From a virus: 20,350 nt of DNA. The notes under the pieces are model-generated. The model made no database searches. It was not told where the DNA came from and saw only the letters and a list, made by a program, of their open reading frames with translations. A program made the position numbers and the translations under genes. Location: positions 1 to 20,350 of the IMG/VR virus record IMGVR_UViG_3300006917_000202. One strand, given 5' to 3'. Shown here in pieces: positions 2,789 through 10,088 of the stretch; within the stretch, counting starts at the first letter, position 1, and the number at the start of each line of letters is the position of its first letter.

Positions 2789-2955
2789 TAAGGCACCTCT
2801 TAAGCCTTGCCTCGGGCGGGTTGTTAGTCATTGGAGTTGGCGATGCCGAAGCTGACAAGCTGGCTGACGCTGTGACGCCTGTATTGTCCGGCGCATTGCT
2901 TTACGGACTTTCGCAGTTTTGGTCGATTAAGGACAAGAAGCGTAACTTCTTTTAA
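2764..2955 (+). CDS. Putative holin, Pam3-gp28-like
   Basis: 63 residues from ATG 2764. An AGGAG at 2752-2756 with 7-base spacing favours this start over the in-frame ATG at 2719. Two hydrophobic stretches (about residues 9-26, VRHLLSLASGGLLVIGVG, and 33-50, AVTPVLSGALLYGLSQFW) are joined by a short acidic linker (DAEADKLAD), and the C-terminus is basic (KDKKRNFF). This is the usual shape of a small two-span holin and resembles the Pam3-gp28 putative holin family. It overlaps the 3' end of the exported protein gene by 25 bases. Its TAA overlaps the TAA of the convergent gene on the other strand. It probably forms the membrane lesion at the end of infection. Confidence 0.7.
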   Translation: MDRFLGSVVRHLLSLASGGLLVIGVGDAEADKLADAVTPVLSGALLYGLSQFWSIKDKKRNFF

Positions 2956-3449
2956 CAGTCTTTGCGGTAGCGTTTGGTCTTTAGCGTTGAGAATGACGCG
3001 CTAGGGGCTCCGTGTGTTTCCTCAGTAGTGTTTGTGACGTAGGAGATGACGGCTTGGAACATCCCGCGAGCTTCGATTTCGGCACAGTGGAGTTTGAATT
3101 GCTTTGCGGCTTGTTCGCGTATGTGGGCTGCCACGTGTGTATCGTCCTCGTAAAGTTGTTCCAGCAGGAATGTGAGGTTAAACGGAACTGGTTGTTTCTC
3201 GAATAGAAACCATCGCAGTCGGTTTATTTCCGCGATGGCTTTTAGGTTGAACGATTGGCGGTGAACTTTGTGAAGTTCATCGTAGCGTATTAGGTGTCCG
3301 TTGCCTGTGGTTAGGATTTTGTCGAAGAAGAAGCAGTAGTCTTTAAGTGCTCTTTCGATGACGGCAAACCATAGTTCGCGTTCGGGGGTTTTTAGGATAG
3401 CGGCTTCTTGATCGACAGCGAATGGGTTGGTTTTGCGATGATCGCTCAT
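2952..3449 (-). CDS. Hypothetical phage protein, last gene of leftward block
   Basis: 165 residues from ATG 3449, chosen because it forms an ATGA overlap with the VRR-NUC gene; the frame extends further upstream but only inside that gene. The protein is mainly helical, with a central stretch KAIAEINRLRWFLFEKQPVPFNLTF and conserved-looking aromatic residues. The C-terminus is Ser/Thr/Lys-rich. No domain was recognised. It ends on TAA at 2952-2954, sharing three bases with the convergent holin-like stop codon. It is the most distal member of a tightly packed leftward operon. Confidence 0.75.
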   Translation of the reverse strand: MSDHRKTNPFAVDQEAAILKTPERELWFAVIERALKDYCFFFDKILTTGNGHLIRYDELHKVHRQSFNLKAIAEINRLRWFLFEKQPVPFNLTFLLEQLYEDDTHVAAHIREQAAKQFKLHCAEIEARGMFQAVISYVTNTTEETHGAPSASFSTLKTKRYRKDC

Positions 3450-3838
3450 AGCTTGTCGGCAAGGTACGCTTCCAGTGTGGCGATAGCTTCTTCTGCGCTC
3501 CAGCACACGCACGCATAGTTCCCGACTTTGTTTAGTTCGTCTATGATTTTGAGCTGTTCTGGGGACGGCTTATTGGGCTTTATTTTAAGCTCGATGTAGA
3601 GCCCGTGGTGCGTTTTGTTTGGCACTGGCACTGAGATATCAGGCACTCCTTTTTTAACGCCAGCGCGAGCCATAGTGACTCTGCGTTGAACGCTTGCTTT
3701 ACGTTCGTTTGGGACGTGCCACGCGAGATGGTAAGCGGGGTGTCTATGGCTTAGAAGGCGGCAATAGTCGAAGAAGGCGATCATGGCGGCTTCTTCGGGA
3801 CCGTGGCGGAAGTTACCCTTCAAACGGTTTGATCTCAT
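3446..3838 (-). CDS. VRR-NUC domain nuclease
   Basis: 130 residues from ATG 3838. The PD-(D/E)XK-type nuclease signature is visible: an N-terminal helix with PEEAAMIAFFDYC (Glu15/16), GVPDISVPVP with Asp67, then YIELKIKP with Glu83 and Lys85, and a closing EQLKIIDELNKVGNYACVCWSAEEAI. This matches VRR-NUC (PF08774). Phage members are thought to cut branched DNA such as Holliday junctions. It overlaps the upstream gene by 26 bases and the downstream gene by ATGA. The frame remains open upstream, to 3970, but that part lies inside the neighbouring gene and lacks domain similarity, so the shorter start is preferred. It could process replication or recombination intermediates made with the Bet/RecT protein at 6366-7220. 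Confidence 0.88.
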   Translation of the reverse strand: MRSNRLKGNFRHGPEEAAMIAFFDYCRLLSHRHPAYHLAWHVPNERKASVQRRVTMARAGVKKGVPDISVPVPNKTHHGLYIELKIKPNKPSPEQLKIIDELNKVGNYACVCWSAEEAIATLEAYLADKL

Positions 3839-4094
3839 CTTTTGGAGCCCAGGCGAGCCATAGGGTGTTTGGGTAGGCTTCTCTAATAACACGGGAGGTG
3901 CGTGGGTTTTCTTCAAACCATCCTCGGTCCCATTTAAGCCAAACGTCTCTTTCGGTTTGTCCGAGGTCAAACCAGTATTCGCGGACGTACCTGACTTCGT
4001 AGCCGTTTACGTCAATGTGTTTGATTGTTATCCAGAACGGAGAGCTGACGGGTGGGTCTTCCCAGGCTTCAAAGTGTTTCCAGTCTGGCGTCAC
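3813..4094 (-). CDS. Hypothetical protein
   Basis: 93 residues from GTG 4094, which forms a GTGA overlap with the preceding 44-residue gene. The protein is rich in Trp, Tyr and acidic residues (DWKHFEAWEDPP, EYWFDLGQTERDVWLKWDRGWFEENP) and looks like a compact beta-rich domain. No family was recognised. Its end overlaps the start of the VRR-NUC gene by 26 bases. The tight packing with both neighbours supports it as a real gene. Function unknown. Confidence 0.7.
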   Translation of the reverse strand: MTPDWKHFEAWEDPPVSSPFWITIKHIDVNGYEVRYVREYWFDLGQTERDVWLKWDRGWFEENPRTSRVIREAYPNTLWLAWAPKDEIKPFEG

Positions 4095-4225
4095 TTCTTT
4101 TTCTTGGTAACGCCTTTAATCTTGCCAGCGTTCTCCGACGCGTAAAACACGGCGTCACCCTGCTTTTTGCCATAGAACTTTTCCATGGCTTGTCTAATTT
4201 TAAGACCCTTTTTGGTCAGTGGCAT
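4091..4225 (-). CDS. Small lysine-rich phage protein (44 residues)
   Basis: The protein begins MPLTKKGLKIRQAMEKFYG, continues DAVFYASENAGKIKGV and ends TKKKK. Very similar short basic proteins, with a KKG..I..AMEK.YG start and a VFYAS...G.I.GV end, recur in many tailed-phage genomes, usually among early genes, with no assigned function. The high Lys content suggests nucleic-acid or nucleoprotein contact (inference). The gene starts within the upstream gene (26-base overlap) and ends in GTGA shared with the next start, so its reading frame is fixed on both sides. At 44 residues it is easily missed by gene callers. Confidence 0.8.
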   Translation of the reverse strand: MPLTKKGLKIRQAMEKFYGKKQGDAVFYASENAGKIKGVTKKKK

Positions 4226-4535
4226 CACAGGCTCCTGTGCAAGCAAACGCAGGACAAGTGTGCCAGTCGGAGCATTGGTTAGCTACAACGTTTTTTTGGC
4301 ACTTGATCATGTAGAACCCATCCCCAGAGAGGGTCTCTACGTGTACTGAGTCACAGTGAAGGACGTTTTCCAGAATAGCTTTTGCAAGCACCTGGGGCTC
4401 GCTTTGGTAGTGTTCTTCCAAGAGAACCCGTAGTTCTGGGTGTTCGTGTGGGCGGTAGGTGTAGCCGTCACCGACCCTTACATGGACGGTAACCTTCCAC
4501 TTGCCGTCGTAGACTGTGTGGGTTGACCAGCTCAT
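4200..4535 (-). CDS. Hypothetical protein with Cys/His-containing C-terminus
   Basis: 111 residues from ATG 4535, three bases after the upstream stop. The N-terminal half is beta-rich (WKVTVHVRVGDGYTYRPHEHPELRVLLEEHY). The C-terminal part contains CQKNVVANQCSDWHTCPAFACTGAC, i.e. five cysteines and a histidine within about 25 residues, which could bind a metal ion. No family was recognised. It overlaps the 44-residue gene by 26 bases. Function unknown; expression as part of the leftward operon is inferred from spacing. Confidence 0.7.
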   Translation of the reverse strand: MSWSTHTVYDGKWKVTVHVRVGDGYTYRPHEHPELRVLLEEHYQSEPQVLAKAILENVLHCDSVHVETLSGDGFYMIKCQKNVVANQCSDWHTCPAFACTGACDATDQKGS

Positions 4536-4538
4536 GCT

Positions 4539-4775
4539 TTAGAACGGCACCTTTTCGTCAGACCCGGCGGGGGCGTTTGCCATGCGCTTTAGGTAGGTGC
4601 TGCACCACTTGACCTCTTGCCTGAGCTGCCTAATTTCGTGGCAAAGAAGAGCAACCATGCCGGACTGGTTAGCCAGTACTGGGGCAAAGGAGGTCTGGTA
4701 CTCGATGAGGCTCACGGCTTCTTTTTCCAGTGCTTCACGGTTCCATTGTTCTGGGCTTTTCTTAGCGTAGCTCAT
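4539..4775 (-). CDS. Small helical hypothetical protein
   Basis: 78 residues from ATG 4775, which overlaps the helicase-loader-like stop as ATGA. The sequence is predicted to be almost wholly helical (EQWNREALEKEAVSLIEYQ, HEIRQLRQEVKWCSTYLKRM). The C-terminus ends in GSDEKVPF, which recalls the acidic-aromatic tails of single-strand-binding proteins, but the rest has no SSB fold. No family was recognised. Coupling to the loader-like gene suggests, without proving, a replication-related role. Confidence 0.65.
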   Translation of the reverse strand: MSYAKKSPEQWNREALEKEAVSLIEYQTSFAPVLANQSGMVALLCHEIRQLRQEVKWCSTYLKRMANAPAGSDEKVPF

Positions 4776-5281
4776 TTAATCATCCTTATGTGCACAGAGG
4801 GTAAAACTGTTTGCAGTGCGGCTTTAATGTCGTCGCTTTCGGCTCGTTTTTCAACCGTTTCGTACCGCTGTCTAAACTGCGCCCGGAGGACGCCTAGCTG
4901 GTCACTGGTTGCGTGCGCGAGTTCCTTTAACCCAGGAACCCCACCAATAGCTTTTAGGGCTTCTGGAGCGAGCCTAGCGGCTTCTTCCTCCGCGTAGTAG
5001 AGGCTTCGCTTTCCAGCGAACAGCACGGCATCCCAGGCGCTAGACCAATCGTCTTTACCGCCTCTGCGGTTTGCCAGAATTGCGGCATTAATTTCGCCAA
5101 CAGAGGGTGGAAACGCTCGTGGTTCGCTAAGGAGTTCTGCGATAGCAACTTGAGTCTCTGTGTAGCTGGCGTGTCCCAGGACGATGCTCCACAGTGTAAC
5201 CCGCTCATCGGAGCAGGATACTTTAGTCCCGTATTCGGCGCGTAAAACGCCAAGCAATCGCCTAATTTCAGTCTCCGTCAT
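4772..5281 (-). CDS. Replicative helicase loader/inhibitor-like protein (G39P-type N-terminus)
   Basis: 169 residues from ATG 5281; an in-frame TTG at 5287 is an alternative. Residues 1-65 show the pattern of phage helicase loaders of the G39P/Loader_inhib type: a first helix TEIRRLLGVLRAEYG, then VTLWSIVLG, then VAIAELLSEPRAFPPSVGEI, where the late FPPSVGEI is characteristic. The C-terminal part (WDAVLFAGKR, LAPEALKAIGGVPGLKEL, LGVLRAQFRQRYETVEKR) matches the second half of such proteins. They recruit the host DnaB-type helicase to the phage origin. It is the first gene of the leftward block, directly beside the origin-like region, which fits. No ATPase motif is present, so it is not a DnaC-type AAA+ loader. 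Confidence 0.75.
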   Translation of the reverse strand: MTETEIRRLLGVLRAEYGTKVSCSDERVTLWSIVLGHASYTETQVAIAELLSEPRAFPPSVGEINAAILANRRGGKDDWSSAWDAVLFAGKRSLYYAEEEAARLAPEALKAIGGVPGLKELAHATSDQLGVLRAQFRQRYETVEKRAESDDIKAALQTVLPSVHIRMIK

Positions 5282-5339
5282 GCCCAATGTGTACCTGATC
5301 TGAACTCTTACCGCTAGTCCCCTGCTACACTTTCTATGT

Positions 5340-5353
5340 GTGGTATATACCAC
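5340..5353 (-). promoter_or_regulatory. Palindrome GTGGTATATACCAC, possible leftward promoter/operator
   Basis: A perfect 14-bp palindrome lies 59 bases upstream of the helicase-loader-like start. Read on the minus strand it contains TGGTATATA, which resembles an extended -10 element. No good -35 is present at the standard distance. It could be the core of the leftward promoter, a repressor site on it, or both. Seen directly in the sequence; function inferred. Confidence 0.4.
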
Positions 5354-5369
5354 CAAGTAAATAAAGTTC

Positions 5370-5398
5370 TTGACAGACCCGTGGTTTTCCCCCCTAAT
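5370..5398 (+). promoter_or_regulatory. Candidate plus-strand sigma70 promoter
   Basis: A perfect TTGACA at 5370-5375 is followed after 17 bases by CCTAAT at 5393-5398 (4 of 6 to TATAAT). It points rightward into a region without a convincing plus-strand gene, ending at the plus-strand terminator at 5892-5934. It might produce an untranslated RNA or a replication primer. The -10 is weak and flanked by C-runs, so confidence is low. Confidence 0.3.
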
Positions 5399-5560
5399 AC
5401 CCTAGGACCCAAAACACCCCCCTTTCCTGCTCGCTTCGCTCGCATTACGCTCTCCCAACCCGCGATGGGTACTTTAGCAGCCTTTGAGTTACGAAACTGC
5501 TCGTTTACAGGGCTGTCTTTTTCCTTGTATTTTTTCCCCCCTAAAATATGTCCTTGATGC

Positions 5561-5830
5561 AGTTTCGGATCACTTGTGAGATTCATGCGGCTTGATCTGC
5601 TCGGAGTGTTGTTCGGATCATCGTAAACAAAATAGAGGTTCGGATTAGAGCTAACGACGTAACGGATCGGCTGTTCGATGCGTGTTACGGTAGGAACACG
5701 TGTATTGAGGGTGTTTTTTGAGCCTGTGGAAAAGCTGTGGATAACTAGGATAAGTTATTAGGATTATTAGGGATCTGATTAGAATTAGGACTTAATAATT
5801 GTGGTTATCGTGGGTATATGATAACCTTCA
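5561..5830. other. Origin-like region: iterons, DnaA boxes, AT-rich tract
   Basis: This non-coding stretch holds three copies of TTCGGATCA/TTCGGATTA at 5564-5572, 5612-5620 and 5639-5647. Two tandem DnaA boxes follow in the same orientation: TGTGGAAAA at 5725-5733 and TGTGGATAA at 5736-5744. The second is the perfect complement of TTATCCACA; the first fits TTWTNCACA. Next comes an AT-rich tract at about 5744-5800 with several TTAGG/ATTAGG words, and an inverted repeat at 5803-5826. Iterons, DnaA boxes and an unwinding-prone tract beside a helicase-loader-like gene are the classic layout of a theta origin. I see no phage initiator gene in the window, so the iteron-binding protein is unknown. 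Confidence 0.5.
5803..5826. promoter_or_regulatory. Inverted repeat GGTTATC-N10-GATAACC
   Basis: Two perfect 7-bp arms at 5803-5809 and 5820-5826 flank a GTGGGTATAT spacer. A TATGAT word (5817-5822, 5 of 6 to a -10 box, plus strand) overlaps the right arm, so this could be an operator over a rightward promoter or part of the origin structure. No good -35 is seen at the normal distance. Confidence 0.35.
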
Positions 5831-5891
5831 GGGGAGAGCGACAAACAACTTGTTGGGGTTGTTCTCCGAACTGCTAGTCACAGTCTTCGTT

Positions 5892-5934
5892 GGCACCAGC
5901 CGAGATTAGTCTCCCGGTTGGTGCCGTTTTTTTT
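5892..5934 (+). terminator. Rho-independent terminator, plus strand
   Basis: Left arm GGCACCAGCCG (5892-5902) pairs with CGGTTGGTGCC (5915-5925), giving an 11-bp stem with one G-U pair, followed by G and eight T residues (5927-5934). It is a strong terminator for rightward transcripts, yet no rightward gene precedes it. The last T of the run is the complement of the terminal A of the tRNA CCA end on the other strand. It would stop rightward transcription from running antisense into the tRNA and early genes. Confidence 0.85.
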
Positions 5935-6009
5935 GGCTGGCGAGGCTGGGATCGAACCAGCGACCACAGGATTAACAATCCTGCGCTCTGCCAACTGAGC
6001 TACTCGCCA
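5934..6009 (-). tRNA. tRNA-Asn (GUU) with encoded CCA
   Basis: 76 bases on the minus strand. Acceptor stem TGGCGAG pairs with CTCGCCA. The D arm is GCTC-AGTTGGCA-GAGC. The anticodon stem CAGGA/TCCTG holds the loop TTGTTAA, giving anticodon GTT. The T arm is GCTGG-TTCGATC-CCAGC. Discriminator G and a genomically encoded CCA follow. All stems pair perfectly. Its 5' ten bases overlap the end of the preceding minus-strand gene, whose TAG stop is formed by tRNA bases 8-10. It probably raises the supply of AAC/AAU decoding during phage growth, or is a remnant used as an attachment site, although no integrase is seen. Confidence 0.97.
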
Positions 6010-6221
6010 GTTTGGGTTAAAACCTCTTGCATGGACTGATGCAGCCAACGGATCCCGTCAGCTTGCCCTTTACTGTAGAGCGATTGCTCGCCCTCCAGGA
6101 GTTTTAGCAGCCGGGTAACCTCTTGGCTAAGGATCGTTTCATGGGCTCGGTAGCCCTGTTTAAACCACCGACGCCGTAGCCGCTGCACCTCGGGGTCAGT
6201 GGTTTTTAGGTCACTCTTCAT
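6000..6221 (-). CDS. Small charged helical protein overlapping the tRNA
   Basis: 73 residues from ATG 6221; a GTG at 6227 is in frame and possible. The protein is basic and helical (PEVQRLRRRWFKQGYRAHETI, VTRLLKLLEGEQ, GIRWLHQSMQEVL). No family was recognised. Its start overlaps the stop of the ribbon-helix-helix gene by 11 bases. Its TAG stop lies inside the tRNA-Asn at tRNA positions 8-10, so RNase P cleavage at the tRNA 5' end would remove the last ten bases of the coding message. It sits in the same leftward operon as Bet/RecT. Confidence 0.65.
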   Translation of the reverse strand: MKSDLKTTDPEVQRLRRRWFKQGYRAHETILSQEVTRLLKLLEGEQSLYSKGQADGIRWLHQSMQEVLTQTGE

Positions 6222-6411
6222 GCCCACACCAGTTCTTCAATGCTTCCTCAAGCGCAGCCGCATGACTCTTGCCTTCTTGTTCGGCAATCGTTTTAAACTC
6301 TTCAAGGAGCTTAATGCTTACGTGGACCGTCCAACGGCGGTAGCCCGTTTTGGGAAGATCGTACCTTAAGCGACGATGCAACTTGTTAGCTTTTCTAATT
6401 TGATTGGGCAT
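6211..6411 (-). CDS. Ribbon-helix-helix (CopG/Arc-like) protein
   Basis: 66 residues from ATG 6411; an in-frame TTG at 6417 is less likely. A basic N-terminus (IRKANKLHRRLRYDLP) precedes the likely DNA-binding strand RRWTVHVSI and two helices, LLEEFKTIAEQEG and HAAALEEALKNWC. This is the strand-helix-helix pattern of the MetJ/Arc superfamily, which binds DNA as dimers. It overlaps the 3' end of the Bet/RecT gene by 46 bases. It probably regulates early transcription; its operator is unknown, but the palindromes at 7683 and 10109-10164 are candidates. Confidence 0.7.
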   Translation of the reverse strand: MPNQIRKANKLHRRLRYDLPKTGYRRWTVHVSIKLLEEFKTIAEQEGKSHAAALEEALKNWCGHEE

Positions 6412-7220
6412 GTCCAAATTCCGTCTGAGCCAAGTTTACATACGTTGTCGCGCAGGTACTCTTCTGCCTTCTCCCTAACGTCAGGAGCTAATTCACGGAT
6501 GTCGTACCGGGTTTCCTTTGCCCTCGTTTGTGGTTCCACTTCCTGACGATCCTGACGTTCCCAGGGGAGTTCGTCACCAGAGACCGCGCTCGCTCTTTCA
6601 AAGCCTCCTGCTTGCGCTTGCGCTTCTCGTGCCTGACCCAAAACCACAGGGAGGTCACTCCCGTTACCAAAATTATTGTTGCCGTAATCATGGGGCATTT
6701 CCTCCGAGGTATATAAGCCGTTTAGTTCTTGTGGGAACGCTTCACGCAAAGCCAAAGCCTTAGCGCATTTAGCGATCATAATTGATGGCATTTGCTCCCA
6801 AATTCCAGGCTTTCCCGTTGGGCTTGGCTTGTAATACTCAGCCATGAGAGCCGTAGCTACTGACGGAAACTTACGGTCTTTTCGGTAGACCTTAGCCGTA
6901 GCTCCCATGATCTTTCCCTGACCATCGACGAGCAACTCGTTCTCCATTCCGTCGTATTCTGGGTGTCTGTTGGCAATCGCTAGGAACCCGTTAATGCCAG
7001 TCATGATCTGGACTTTGCCCTCTACCATAGTGCCGTCGCGCCTTTGGTAGCCTTTGGTCTTGATAAACCAGACCTCTTTTTTGAACGGGTTTAGTCCCGT
7101 TGAGCGGCAGTACTCCACAAACATCGCAAATTCAGCGTCCGTGGCGTTCTGCGCGACAGTGTTTCGCAACACCGAAACAACCTCTCGGCTGCTGTAATCA
7201 ATTTTTTGTAAGTCAGTCAT
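6366..7220 (-). CDS. bet: Phage recombination protein Bet (RecT family)
   Basis: 284 residues. ATG 7220 is preceded by AAAGGAA at a good distance. The RecT/Bet domain (PF03837) covers roughly residues 10-190, with landmarks EFAMFVEYCRSTGLNPFKKE, IMTGINGFLAIANRHPEYDGM, WEQMPSIMIAKCAKALALRE and AFPQELNGLYTSEEM. The C-terminal third is a low-complexity linker followed by a short tail. Family members bind single-stranded DNA and anneal complementary strands. Members usually pair with a 5'-3' exonuclease, but no exonuclease of the lambda Exo or RecE type is visible here; the VRR-NUC gene is the only nuclease in the window. It lies in the leftward early operon behind the zinc-ribbon/RHH gene. Confidence 0.93.
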   Translation of the reverse strand: MTDLQKIDYSSREVVSVLRNTVAQNATDAEFAMFVEYCRSTGLNPFKKEVWFIKTKGYQRRDGTMVEGKVQIMTGINGFLAIANRHPEYDGMENELLVDGQGKIMGATAKVYRKDRKFPSVATALMAEYYKPSPTGKPGIWEQMPSIMIAKCAKALALREAFPQELNGLYTSEEMPHDYGNNNFGNGSDLPVVLGQAREAQAQAGGFERASAVSGDELPWERQDRQEVEPQTRAKETRYDIRELAPDVREKAEEYLRDNVCKLGSDGIWTCPIKLEKLTSCIVA

Positions 7221-7236
7221 TTCGTTCCTTTTATGG

Positions 7237-7644
7237 TTACTTGTTTAAGATAAAGAGGTTTGAAAGTGCCTCTTCCAAAAGCTGTTGGGTCGTCATCTTT
7301 TTGCGAGCCTTCAATTCCTGAAATGCCGCAAAATCCTTCGCGCTTATGTAATGAACCGACAACGTGTGGGTGTTGCCGTAACGCTCGCGCTGCTTTTCCT
7401 TCGCACGAGTCTTGTTGCGCCTGGTCTCATTGTATTCTTTTTGACAATCCCGACACTGCGGCTGTCGTCCCAATGCGCCAACCACACAGCGGTTAAACGC
7501 CTCCAGGGGAAGCGTCTTGTTACACTTTGTGCAAAGTTTGGTCGTTGCCTCAGGCTTTGCCGCTTCGCGCTTCTTTGCCCTAACAGGCTTAACTTCTTTA
7601 ACAGGTGTTGTGGTCTGAAACAGACCAAATAGGTTTTTTAGCAT
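7237..7644 (-). CDS. Zinc-ribbon plus ribbon-helix-helix fusion protein
   Basis: 135 residues from ATG 7644, preceded by GGAGACTAAAA. After a basic linker (PVKEVKPVRAKKREAAKPEA), residues about 38-70 hold CTKCNKTLPLEAFNR and RQPQCRDCQKEYN. This CXXC...CXXC ribbon is of the kind found at the start of phage endonuclease-VII/HNH-like proteins. A basic helix (NETRRNKTRAKEKQRERYG) leads to a C-terminal segment, HTLSVHYISAKDFAAFQELKA then TTQQLLEEALSNLF. This has the ribbon-helix-helix pattern and resembles the separate RHH gene at 6211-6411. No nuclease residues follow the ribbon. It is most likely a DNA-binding regulator. It begins the transcript leading to Bet/RecT, just downstream of an operator-like palindrome. 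Confidence 0.75.
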   Translation of the reverse strand: MLKNLFGLFQTTTPVKEVKPVRAKKREAAKPEATTKLCTKCNKTLPLEAFNRCVVGALGRQPQCRDCQKEYNETRRNKTRAKEKQRERYGNTHTLSVHYISAKDFAAFQELKARKKMTTQQLLEEALSNLFILNK

Positions 7645-7682
7645 TTTTAGTCTCCAGTCATGCCGTCAGTGGCATCTTGTTA

Positions 7683-7696
7683 CTATGTAAACATAG
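7683..7696. promoter_or_regulatory. Operator-like palindrome CTATGTAAACATAG
   Basis: A perfect 6-2-6 palindrome lies between the stop of the gene at 7697 and the start of the zinc-ribbon/RHH gene. The same arms, CTATGT-N2-ACATAG, recur at 10151-10164 in the divergent control region. On the minus strand it contains TTTACA, a possible -35 hexamer. Between it and the 7644 start lies a further inverted repeat, ATGCC-N6-GGCAT (7659-7674 region). It is likely a repressor site controlling the Bet/RecT transcript. Confidence 0.55.
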
Positions 7697-8017
7697 CTAT
7701 GGGTCTTGGTCAAGGATCTCTGTGAGCGCAGCAAATCCGTCGCACCCAATTTCAAAGCTCAAAACATAGACCCCCTCAGAGTCGCCCAGGACCGCCTCAA
7801 AGCCGTCGTTTTCATAGGGACACTCAAGCGTCACTGGACCAGATCCGTCGCTTACGCTGCGTAGGTATTCAGCCAAATCCGCCAATGCGTCGTGGTCAGT
7901 TTGCTTCGCATACAGCTTGCGCAGGTACCACTCCACTGCCTCATCTTCCTCAACGCCAACAATCGCCACCGTCCGGTAGCGATAGCCTTCCGAAAAGAAT
8001 TTCCTGCGAGTCCCCAT
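7697..8017 (-). CDS. Hypothetical acidic protein
   Basis: 106 residues from ATG 8017; an adjacent in-frame TTG at 8020 is less likely. After a basic start (MGTRRKFFSEGYRYRTVAI) the protein is strongly acidic (VGVEEDEAVEWYLRKLY, ECPYENDGFEAVLGDSEGVY) and ends EILDQDP. A mixed alpha/beta fold is likely. No family was recognised. It is preceded by the 26-bp tandem repeat, whose proximal copy ends directly at the start codon and supplies a weak AAAAAAGG ribosome-binding sequence. It is the first gene after the regulatory stretch at 8079-8319. Confidence 0.65.
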   Translation of the reverse strand: MGTRRKFFSEGYRYRTVAIVGVEEDEAVEWYLRKLYAKQTDHDALADLAEYLRSVSDGSGPVTLECPYENDGFEAVLGDSEGVYVLSFEIGCDGFAALTEILDQDP

Positions 8018-8078
8018 CAAATAGCCTTTTTTCCGATCAAGTCAGTCCAAAACAAATAGCCTTTTTTCCGATCAAGTC
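8018..8078. repeat. 26-bp direct repeat, two perfect copies
   Basis: Copies at 8018-8043 and 8053-8078 are identical over 26 bases (plus strand beginning CAAATAGCC and ending GATCAAGTC), with a 35-bp period and a 9-base spacer. The first copy abuts the ATG at 8017. The repeat may be a duplicated leader or a pair of regulator sites, and a recent tandem duplication would also give this pattern. The perfect identity over 26 bases is unlikely by chance. Confidence 0.9.
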
Positions 8079-8319
8079 TTACCGGAAGGAACGCCTTACG
8101 TGAAACACCAAAGTTACAAGGCGAGGGCTCGCACGCGCACGCGCACGCAACCCCAAAACCAGGGTACAGGCACTTAACCACGTTACACGTAGTTAGCGCG
8201 CAACAAGGGTACACTAGCCCTAAGCTGCATCATGCAGTTAAGACGGACAGTGAGCCCAAGGCTCTATAAGCCTCGTGGTTGAATTATCTAGGTCATGTCA
8301 TAGGCAACCCCCAGGGTAT
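8079..8319. other. Non-coding leader with palindromes and a short GC-rich repeat
   Basis: No convincing gene is seen on either strand. The stretch contains GCGAG-GG-CTCGC (8121-8132) running into three tandem GCACGC hexamers (8131-8148), ACGT-TAC-ACGT near 8180-8190, the palindrome at 8225-8237 and a GAGCC-CAA-GGCTC hairpin near 8252-8264. It separates the terminator of the 8353 gene from the leftward gene at 8017, so it should contain that gene's promoter, but I see no good -35/-10 pair. Confidence 0.6.
8225..8237. promoter_or_regulatory. Palindrome CTGCATCATGCAG
   Basis: A 6-1-6 palindrome. Its central GCATCATGC is identical to the centre of the larger palindrome at 10109-10125, and both lie in non-coding control regions of the leftward genes. 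This suggests a shared DNA-binding protein. Function inferred. Confidence 0.45.
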
Positions 8320-8343
8320 AAAAAAAGCCCCGTGGTGGGGCTT
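8320..8343 (-). terminator. Rho-independent terminator, minus strand
   Basis: On the minus strand AAGCCCC-ACCAC-GGGGCTT forms a 7-bp stem with a 5-base loop, followed by a run of T residues (the A-run 8320-8326 on the plus strand). It lies 10 bases after the stop of the gene at 8353-8871 and ends the distal leftward transcript from the 10088 promoter region. Confidence 0.88.
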
Positions 8344-8352
8344 GTAGGCGGG

Positions 8353-8871
8353 TTAAAAGAAACTATCGTTTTGTGTAAGTGCATCTAGCACTCGTTCTGG
8401 GATCTCATCCCTACGAGCTGCAAAAACAGTGACTTTCGATTCTTGGCACAATTTAACCCGTTGTCCAAGGTTAGCAGTTTCCCAGTAGCTACAGATAGCT
8501 TCATACTGTCGGTTGCAGTAGTCATCTTCGTCATGCACGTGGTAGTTCGCCAAGTCTCGCACAATCTCAACACAACGGTCTAACAGCTTGGTCTCGGCGT
8601 CACGCTTAACCATCAGATATTTAACCCATCCGCACGCCCAATGCCCATGACGAATCACCTCTACACTATCCGATTCGCCTCCCAAGTCTTTTAGGATGCT
8701 TTCAAAATTGCTTTCCTCTAGCAAACTAGAGTCACGGGTTCGGCTTGCAATAACGTAGCCCGAGGGCTTGGTACCTATGAAGTTAGCATCGGAATCAAAG
8801 CCAGTGGGATGCTGCCATCTTGGTAAGACCTCATCATAGTAGCCTTGGTCAAATTCAAAACGAGTTGTCAT
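8353..8871 (-). CDS. Conserved hypothetical phage protein
   Basis: 172 residues from ATG 8871, chosen because AGGAGACTT lies directly before it; the frame extends upstream to 8901 without a ribosome-binding site. Recognisable segments are VIASRTRDSSLLEESNFESI, then LGGESDSVEVIRHGHWACGW and VKYLMVKRD. Proteins with this NF...L...GG.....V....HWA.GW pattern recur in unrelated phages without assigned function. The C-terminus carries DEIPERVLDALTQNDSFF. It is the last gene before the leftward terminator at 8320-8343. A structured spacer with two inverted repeats separates it from the preceding gene. Confidence 0.8.
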   Translation of the reverse strand: MTTRFEFDQGYYDEVLPRWQHPTGFDSDANFIGTKPSGYVIASRTRDSSLLEESNFESILKDLGGESDSVEVIRHGHWACGWVKYLMVKRDAETKLLDRCVEIVRDLANYHVHDEDDYCNRQYEAICSYWETANLGQRVKLCQESKVTVFAARRDEIPERVLDALTQNDSFF

Positions 8872-8891
8872 AAGTCTCCTAGTCACAATCG

Positions 8892-8940
8892 TCGGCACCA
8901 TGCCGATCTAGCGGCTACCCCTTGGGATAGCCTGTAGATC
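8892..8940 (-). other. Structured intergenic spacer with two inverted repeats
   Basis: TCGGCA-CCA-TGCCGA (8892-8906) is followed by a longer imperfect hairpin. In it GATCTA (8905-8910) pairs with TAGATC (8935-8940), and inside these GGCTA pairs with TAGCC and CCC with GGG around a CTT loop. The hairpin begins right after the stop of the secreted-protein gene. There is no T-run, so a simple terminator is unlikely. RNA stabilisation, processing or protein binding are options. The word GCTACCCCTT here is repeated at 10120-10129 in the control region. Confidence 0.5.
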
Positions 8941-8941
8941 G

Positions 8942-9283
8942 TTACTGCCCAGGCACACGCCACATCATCGGCTGACCTAGCGCATTGTTCGGCACAATCG
9001 CCGTCACAGTCTCTGATGTCGTTACGTCCCGATCATATATTTGGCTCAGCAGAGGATCAGGTCTCTCCCGTGTCGTCGTCACAACACTGTAGCCCGTGTT
9101 CCAACCCGCCGAATTAACCTCCCCTTGCCTTGGGATTGGTAAACTCGGACCGAACGGAGGCGCGACCGGCACCACATTAGGGTTGTAGATGGGTCGGCTC
9201 GGCATTGGCTCGTACTCTTCCCATAGTTGCGCATGGGCTACCGATGGGATGAGAGCAAGTAATAAGGTAAGGGTTGTTTTCAT
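8942..9283 (-). CDS. Small exported proline-rich protein in early operon
   Basis: 113 residues. ATG 9283 is preceded by AAGGAGACTAACC. Residues 1-19 (MKTTLTLLLALIPSVAHAQ) form a clear signal peptide with an AHA cleavage site. The mature part is Pro-rich at first (EPMPSRPIYNPNVVPVAPPF) and then Thr/Val-rich (GYSVVTTTRERP, TTSETVTAIVP). No transmembrane segment or lipobox is visible after the signal. No family was recognised. An exported product from an early, regulated operon could alter the host envelope, for example by blocking superinfection, but that is inference. The upstream gene's TAA stop lies inside the ribosome-binding cassette, so the two are coupled. Confidence 0.72.
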   Translation of the reverse strand: MKTTLTLLLALIPSVAHAQLWEEYEPMPSRPIYNPNVVPVAPPFGPSLPIPRQGEVNSAGWNTGYSVVTTTRERPDPLLSQIYDRDVTTSETVTAIVPNNALGQPMMWRVPGQ

Positions 9284-9285
9284 GG

Positions 9286-9486
9286 TTAGTCTCCTTGGTC
9301 CGTTAGTTGCTCATCATCATCTTCGTCAGTTTCTTCTATAAGCCCTTCGCGGCGTGCCATATCTGCTACTTCGTCCTCGCTCATGTAGCGCAAGCACGCT
9401 CTGCCTATAGACTCCCAAGACAGTACTTCTTCCTTTGCCCGTTCGATTAAAAGGGTCGTAATCCATCTCACATGGTGGGTTTTCAT
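9286..9486 (-). CDS. Small acidic-tailed hypothetical protein
   Basis: 66 residues. ATG 9486 is preceded by AAGGAGACTAACT, which rules out longer starts. A basic helical N-terminus (MKTHHVRWITTLLIERAKEE) is followed by SIGRACLRYMSEDEVADMAR and a very acidic tail (ETDEDDDEQLTDQGD). Acidic tails of this kind occur in DNA-mimic or anti-regulator proteins, but no family was recognised. It is followed after two bases by the secreted-protein gene. Confidence 0.7.
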   Translation of the reverse strand: MKTHHVRWITTLLIERAKEEVLSWESIGRACLRYMSEDEVADMARREGLIEETDEDDDEQLTDQGD

Positions 9487-9497
9487 AGTTAGTCTCC

Positions 9498-9779
9498 TTA
9501 GTCGTCGTTTCCTAAATGATCGTGGGCTTCGTCCTCTGTCGCAAACACCGACCATTCGGTGCAGTCCAAGTATCCAGGCATGCTGAAGCGAGCCCCATAC
9601 CCGTCGACAATGCGACAGCTCACGAAGTCGCCGTCTATAAAGTCTCGAACATCGTTAGCTGTCAGGGTTGTTGTTTTACCCTTACCTGCACACACCAAGT
9701 CAAAAGGCACCCACACAATTCCGTGAGTGGTGTCGATCTCCGCCCACCTGTCGTAAATCACTTGTTTTACCATGCTCAT
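9498..9779 (-). CDS. Hypothetical beta-rich protein
   Basis: 93 residues. ATG 9779 follows AAGGAGACTAACC; a second Met two codons on is less well placed. The sequence alternates strands and turns (QVIYDRWAEIDTTHGIVWVP, DGDFVSCRIVDGYGARF) and ends in an acidic, His-containing tail (ATEDEAHDHLGNDD). No family was recognised. It lies between two genes with nearly identical ribosome-binding cassettes. Confidence 0.7.
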   Translation of the reverse strand: MSMVKQVIYDRWAEIDTTHGIVWVPFDLVCAGKGKTTTLTANDVRDFIDGDFVSCRIVDGYGARFSMPGYLDCTEWSVFATEDEAHDHLGNDD

Positions 9780-9797
9780 GGTTAGTCTCCTTCGTCT

Positions 9798-10088
9798 TTA
9801 AGCGTGGTCATCGTTGTTGTCGACACACGACAGATCGTCAGCATCGTCGCGCAAAGTCTGGAGTCGTTTGAGTTGCCCGTAAATGTCGCTTTCAAGGTCG
9901 CCGATCAAACGCTCACCAATATTTTCGTTGTAGCCGAATTTGCCACCCATGGTCCGAACGTACGCGAGATACTCGGTTAAGAGGTTCATTGTTTTCTCGT
10001 ATTGCGAAACAAGTGCAACGCGGCGACGCTCTACCTCGTGCTCTTCACTCTCGCTCGGAAATTGTGGCGTGTTGTCTGTCGTTGTCAT
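9798..10088 (-). CDS. First gene of leftward early operon, helical hypothetical protein
   Basis: 96 residues. ATG 10088 follows AGGAGACTAACC. The N-terminus is polar (MTTTDNTPQFPSESEEHEVE). The rest looks helical (RRRVALVSQYEKTMNLLTEY, LIGDLESDIYGQLKRLQTLR) and ends acidic (DDADDLSCVDNNDDHA). No family was recognised. As the promoter-proximal gene opposite the XRE regulator it occupies the place of an early regulator such as a Cro-like or anti-repressor protein, yet it has no recognisable helix-turn-helix. Confidence 0.72.
   Translation of the reverse strand: MTTTDNTPQFPSESEEHEVERRRVALVSQYEKTMNLLTEYLAYVRTMGGKFGYNENIGERLIGDLESDIYGQLKRLQTLRDDADDLSCVDNNDDHA

Follow-up and report, generated by a model that had tools for sequence, protein, structure and literature searches.

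Gene organisation of the early region

The window, a stretch of 20,350 bp, is a fragment of an environmental phage record with tail-fibre-like ORFs at both ends. The late genes, among them those for terminase, portal and capsid, are located on the plus strand, and the early genes form a block on the minus strand (2952-10088). This block encodes a helicase loader (4772..5281, minus strand), a RecT/Bet-type single-strand annealing protein (6366..7220, minus strand) and a VRR-NUC nuclease (3446-3970), and it also holds an endonuclease-VII-like ORF, a small ribbon-helix-helix-like ORF (6211..6417, minus strand) and a tRNA-Asn(GTT) (5934..6009, minus strand) that is located alike in most relatives. 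Between the tRNA-Asn and the loader, about 650 bp (about 5285-5933) contain no gene. The codon usage gave little or no signal in the tested open frames of this intergenic stretch and a signal in all real genes tested. A coding function of the repeats and open frames was rejected, since the codon-usage test was negative for the ORF at 5314-5586 as well as for 68-aa ORFs in the relatives G002 and G004. The tRNA was the only Rfam family found. Elsewhere in the early block, two direct repeats of 24-35 nt that are 32-35 bp apart were observed in the window (8009-8078) and in two other records (L026, 963-1018; L034, 8727-8785). In each lineage they occupy the gap that precedes the next early ORF and are possibly operators.

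A nucleotide search of annotated phages with the window gave no match, and relatives of the loader were not found in the genome contigs searched. Distant relatives of the terminase were present only in two Gammaproteobacteria MAGs, and the loader and the DnaA boxes described below were absent from the stretches examined there. With profiles of the loader and of RecT, eight lineages were found that have the gene order RecT, small ORF, (tRNA-Asn), intergenic region and loader.

The loader has the G39P/lambda P fold

The initial annotation had placed a putative replication origin beside a helicase-loader-like gene, and this assignment of the gene is borne out. The protein scores above the cut-off for PF11417, and its AlphaFold model (mean pLDDT 78.7) has an N-terminal G39P fold that superimposes on SPP1 G39P (1no1) with a Z of 10.1 and an rmsd of 1.5 A over 65 of 67 residues. 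Lambda P on the E. coli DnaB (9oa1) was matched with a Z of 9.0, and the next unrelated row had a Z of 5.3. Unlike the fold comparison, a PDB sequence search with the loader alignment was negative. Judged by its modelled fold, the product is a true G39P/lambda P-type loader, and as such it would bind and load a replicative helicase. Lambda P acts on a DnaB module that is also used by the loaders DnaC and DciA (PMC9912922), and it is therefore plausible that a phage loader works at a site opened by DnaA.

Two tandem DnaA boxes lie beside an easily melted tract

Two tandem DnaA boxes had been described in the intergenic stretch, one of them perfect, and both were found at 5725-5744. Box 1, TTATCCACA, has the perfect consensus (5736..5744, minus strand), and box 2, TTTTCCACA, follows as a direct tandem (5725..5733, minus strand). 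The two 9-mers are separated by 2 bp, which gives an 11-bp period. Both boxes are conserved in the strains L002 and L009, and box 1 aligns with the boxes of the more distant G008, L095 and G009. A lone exact TTWTNCACA is not rare, as an order-2 Markov model predicts about 1.1 in 20 kb. Under Markov simulation a same-strand pair within 25 bp occurred in 0.13% of the windows (P 0.0013 per window) and in 0.015% of the intergenic regions, and the cluster is thus beyond chance. When L002 was compared with the window, 30 sites differed within 5623-5831, and the positions between 5712 and 5749, which include the boxes, formed an unchanged island in this quickly changing part; this is a modest effect with a post hoc P of 0.04. 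The boxes are very probably functional DnaA sites. DnaA-trio and CTAA repeats showed no excess in the analysis, and a GATC cluster of the Dam/SeqA type was rejected, as it was not unusual for the window.

The AT-rich tract of the initial annotation is also present. By nearest-neighbour duplex stability, no other 80-bp stretch of the 20,350 bp is as unstable as positions 5743..5822, and on this computed stability they are a candidate DNA unwinding element adjacent to the boxes. The record-wide minimum also falls into the RecT-to-loader segment in L002, G006, G009 and G010. In G002, G003 and G004, which are also without boxes, it lies outside of this segment. In E. coli and B. subtilis the AT-rich tract is found on the opposite side of the boxes from that in the window.

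The GC skew had been suggested as a check of the origin and gave no origin signal. The cumulative skew of the window has a maximum and not a minimum near the site, and in G002 and G009 the minimum is at the early/late divergence and not at the box region. This is weak evidence, uninformative to negative, because the skew follows the gene strand in these phages.

The boxes recur between RecT and the loader of several related phages

The relatives that repeat this design in the RecT-to-loader segment have loaders that are about 50% identical; those of G008, L095 and G009 are 44-50% identical to the loader of the window. In L038/G008, L094 and L095, the sequence TTATCCACAGGTTATCCACA with two perfect boxes lies upstream of the loader, at a distance of about 235-245 bp. 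In the 34.7-kb record G009, five perfect boxes follow each other with an 11-bp period in the opposite orientation, directly after the homologue of the small ribbon-helix-helix ORF, and TTATCCACA occurs nowhere else in this record. In G010 a single box is located at this junction. In G006, TTTTGCACA is accompanied by a degenerate TTATTAACA 11 bp away and by TTTTTCACA. No TTWTNCACA was observed in the shared region of G002, G003 and G004 or between the tRNA-Asn and the loader of L091/L093. DnaA boxes are present in five of the eight lineages (in G006 as scattered or degenerate boxes only) and absent in G002, G003/G004 and L091/L093, and their position and orientation vary between the lineages.

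When one record per lineage was counted, the 7.3 kb of the segment contained nine perfect boxes and the other 131 kb contained two (binomial P 1.6e-10, with the tandem copies not independent of each other). The best local alignment of the window region to the regions of G008, L095 and G009 corresponded exactly to the boxes.

Tandem boxes were also observed beyond these relatives. The exact tandem TTATCCACA-NN-TTATCCACA is present in at least 120 viral contigs, with a chance expectation of about one by a rough estimate. Among 80 surveyed contigs (L123-L202), the pair was outside of ORFs of at least 100 aa in 67, 53 had three or more boxes in a span of 300 bp, and in 30 the pair was no more than 3.5 kb away from a member of one terminase family, with a small-terminase-like ORF often close by.

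No support for the repeats and the inverted repeat as general elements

Three iterons had been included in the proposed origin. The repeats exist on the plus strand as TTCGGATCA at 5564..5572 and 5612..5620 and as TTCGGATTA at 5639..5647, where the strain L002 reads TTCGGATCA. They were not found in other lineages and are known only from the one that comprises the window, L002 and L009, so they are not supported as a general element of the design. Three 9-bp repeats of a single lineage, with no initiator found, do not make up an iteron-type origin as in P1 or lambda. Similarly, the inverted repeat GGTTATC..GATAACC exists at 5803..5826 but is destroyed in the near-identical L002. What stands of the original origin reading are therefore the boxes, the melting-prone tract and the adjacency to the loader, which recur in relatives; the iterons, the inverted repeat and the GC skew do not support it.

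A perfect 14-bp palindrome, GTGGTATATACCAC, was observed at 5340-5353 between the loader start and a G-rich block. In addition, GACWGTGACTAGC occurs beside an antisense terminator in the window (5873-5885, minus strand) and in L004 (2475-2487). Six records have one copy each and the reversed control pattern had none; it may mark a very short leader peptide that starts with GTG.

A phage initiator was not recognised

The absence of a visible initiator had been noted from the window, and it extends to a larger record. When the larger early proteins were scanned with Pfam and PHROGs, no initiator and no O-like or DnaD-like protein was detected. The relative G002 (35.6 kb) has no recognisable initiator, helicase or polymerase, and it is nearly complete, because the gene order of G006 makes its two ends neighbours. 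A search of eight records, the window and seven related ones, found no DnaB-type helicase. Several early proteins are without an assigned function and could hide an unrecognised initiator.

The initiator gene usually precedes the loader gene, as in lambda O-P and SPP1 38-39. The distant Firmicute-type records L097 and L105 have a DnaD/O-like or replisome-organiser gene directly upstream of the G39P loader. In the window this slot is occupied by the box-bearing non-coding region.

Promoter-like elements and other possible functions of the boxes

Upstream of the loader, the G-rich block GGGGGGTGTTTTGGGTCCTAGGGTATTAGGGGGG (5389..5422, minus strand) is the sole strict quadruplex motif (G3+N1-7) of the window and likewise the sole one in G002 and G003. 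Together with a TTGACA on the opposite strand it is located just upstream of the loader in 11 of 11 aligned records, including the box-less lineages. In the window, this TTGACA (5370..5375, plus strand) is a possible -35 element of a transcript directed away from the loader and across the AT-rich tract, and no canonical -10 was seen for it. An intrinsic terminator-like hairpin followed by T8 is present at 5892..5934 on the plus strand, and relatives have an antisense terminator of different sequence near the same position that would stop transcripts leaving the loader. As both the TTGACA and the antisense terminator are present, a transcript through the AT-rich tract is possible.

These elements would fit a transcriptional switch, in which host DnaA turns the loader operon or an antisense transcript down or up, with the origin located elsewhere, for example in the divergent early/late promoter region where the GC-skew minimum is found. 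We consider this unlikely. The boxes are 230-660 bp away from the loader start, their orientation flips between lineages, and they accompany the DNA that melts most easily in the record, which a simple operator would not need.

The boxes might also act as a decoy that titrates host DnaA, either to stop host replication or to free the replisome, in the way that the E. coli datA locus soaks up DnaA. The five perfect high-affinity boxes of G009 would titrate DnaA at a high phage copy number, and other environmental phages commonly have tandem boxes, in many cases close to terminase genes. Still, two boxes as in the window are a weak sponge, and a decoy leaves the steady position beside a helicase loader and a melting-prone tract unexplained, which makes this reading improbable, slightly more so than the switch.

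An ORF of 64 codons that includes a hydrophobic segment covers the boxes in L038 (about 5384-5578), L094 and L095, and this segment changes residues yet stays hydrophobic across the three strains. The least probable reading, and a very unlikely one, takes the region for a plain regulatory spacer or a structured RNA gene and the box-like letters for relics of a small membrane-protein gene. In its favour, the boxes of G008, L094 and L095 lie inside this ORF (..SYPQVIHRLW..), one frame of the window reads ..SYPQLFHRL.. and the plus strand of the region folds well into a multibranch structure (z -4.5). Against it, the boxes of G009 and G010 lie outside of genes and point the other way, and the frame in the window lacks a start codon (ATG, GTG or TTG). 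In addition, G008, L094 and L095 do not differ from each other over the 62 nt surrounding the boxes, even at synonymous sites, and a conserved RNA was rejected because L002 does not keep the fold.

A putative origin driven by host DnaA

Having weighed these alternatives, we favour a role in replication. The region is likely the replication origin of the phage, and, with slightly less confidence, the stretch at about 5285-5933 with its core at 5725-5822 is probably driven by host DnaA and served by the phage loader. Host DnaA would bind to the tandem boxes and help to melt the adjacent AT-rich tract, and the G39P/lambda P-type loader would place the DnaB helicase of the host on the separated strands. 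Primase and polymerase III of the host would complete the rest, and RecT and the VRR-NUC resolvase may serve a later, recombination-dependent phase. Because the design of boxes and melting-prone DNA recurs in several relatives without a recognisable initiator, these phages probably borrow the replication starter of their host. That DnaA is the sole initiator is a tentative reading, to which we give a little less than even weight.

In the well-studied phage origins of lambda, SPP1 and P1, a replicon-encoded initiator opens the origin and DnaA is a helper at most. The lambda ori with O and P is similar to the window in its loader, which resembles lambda P in the model and would act on host DnaB, but the window has no O-like initiator and no lambda-type iterons within a gene. 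SPP1 encodes the origin-binding protein G38P and the helicase G40P, and its oriL works with G38P-G39P-G40P (PMC5615212). The window shares with SPP1 the G39P fold of the loader and the nearby genes for a single-strand annealing protein and a resolvase, whereas counterparts of G38P and G40P were not recognised.

DnaA boxes are also part of the iteron plasmid origins of P1 oriR, pSC101, R6K, F and RK2 (PMC5043065). As in these, the boxes are beside an AT-rich tract and short direct repeats occur in the lineage of the window, but the plasmids need a replicon-encoded iteron-binding Rep; here none was recognised and the repeats are not shared by the relatives. The E. coli-type oriC also has consensus boxes and an adjacent unwinding element, and its cooperative DnaA arrays consist of same-direction boxes exactly 2 bp apart (PMC4451416). 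The design described here differs from it in that no more than one to five boxes are present and a phage carries them, in the placement of the AT-rich tract on the other side and in the phage-encoded loader.

One phage paper describes software-annotated DnaA boxes in a predicted origin; that phage has its own primase and polymerase (PMC11512268). Our literature search, which covered mainly papers available without subscription, found no paper on a loader-only phage with a DnaA-box origin.

It is conceivable, though we hold it at somewhat below even, that a clade of tailed phages has dropped its O-, G38P- or DnaD-like initiator and has a mini-oriC that is read by host DnaA alone, with only the G39P/lambda P-type loader retained for capturing host DnaB; a chromosome-type initiation would thereby be joined to a phage loader. 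The tandem-box signature is easily searched for, and the scan of viral contigs suggests that many unstudied phages carry it. If the reading is true, a small system of DnaA, loader and DnaB could be rebuilt in vitro, DnaA would be seen to hand over to a loader that is normally partnered with proteins of the O/G38P type, and the replication of these phages would be tied to the DnaA-ATP cycle of their host.
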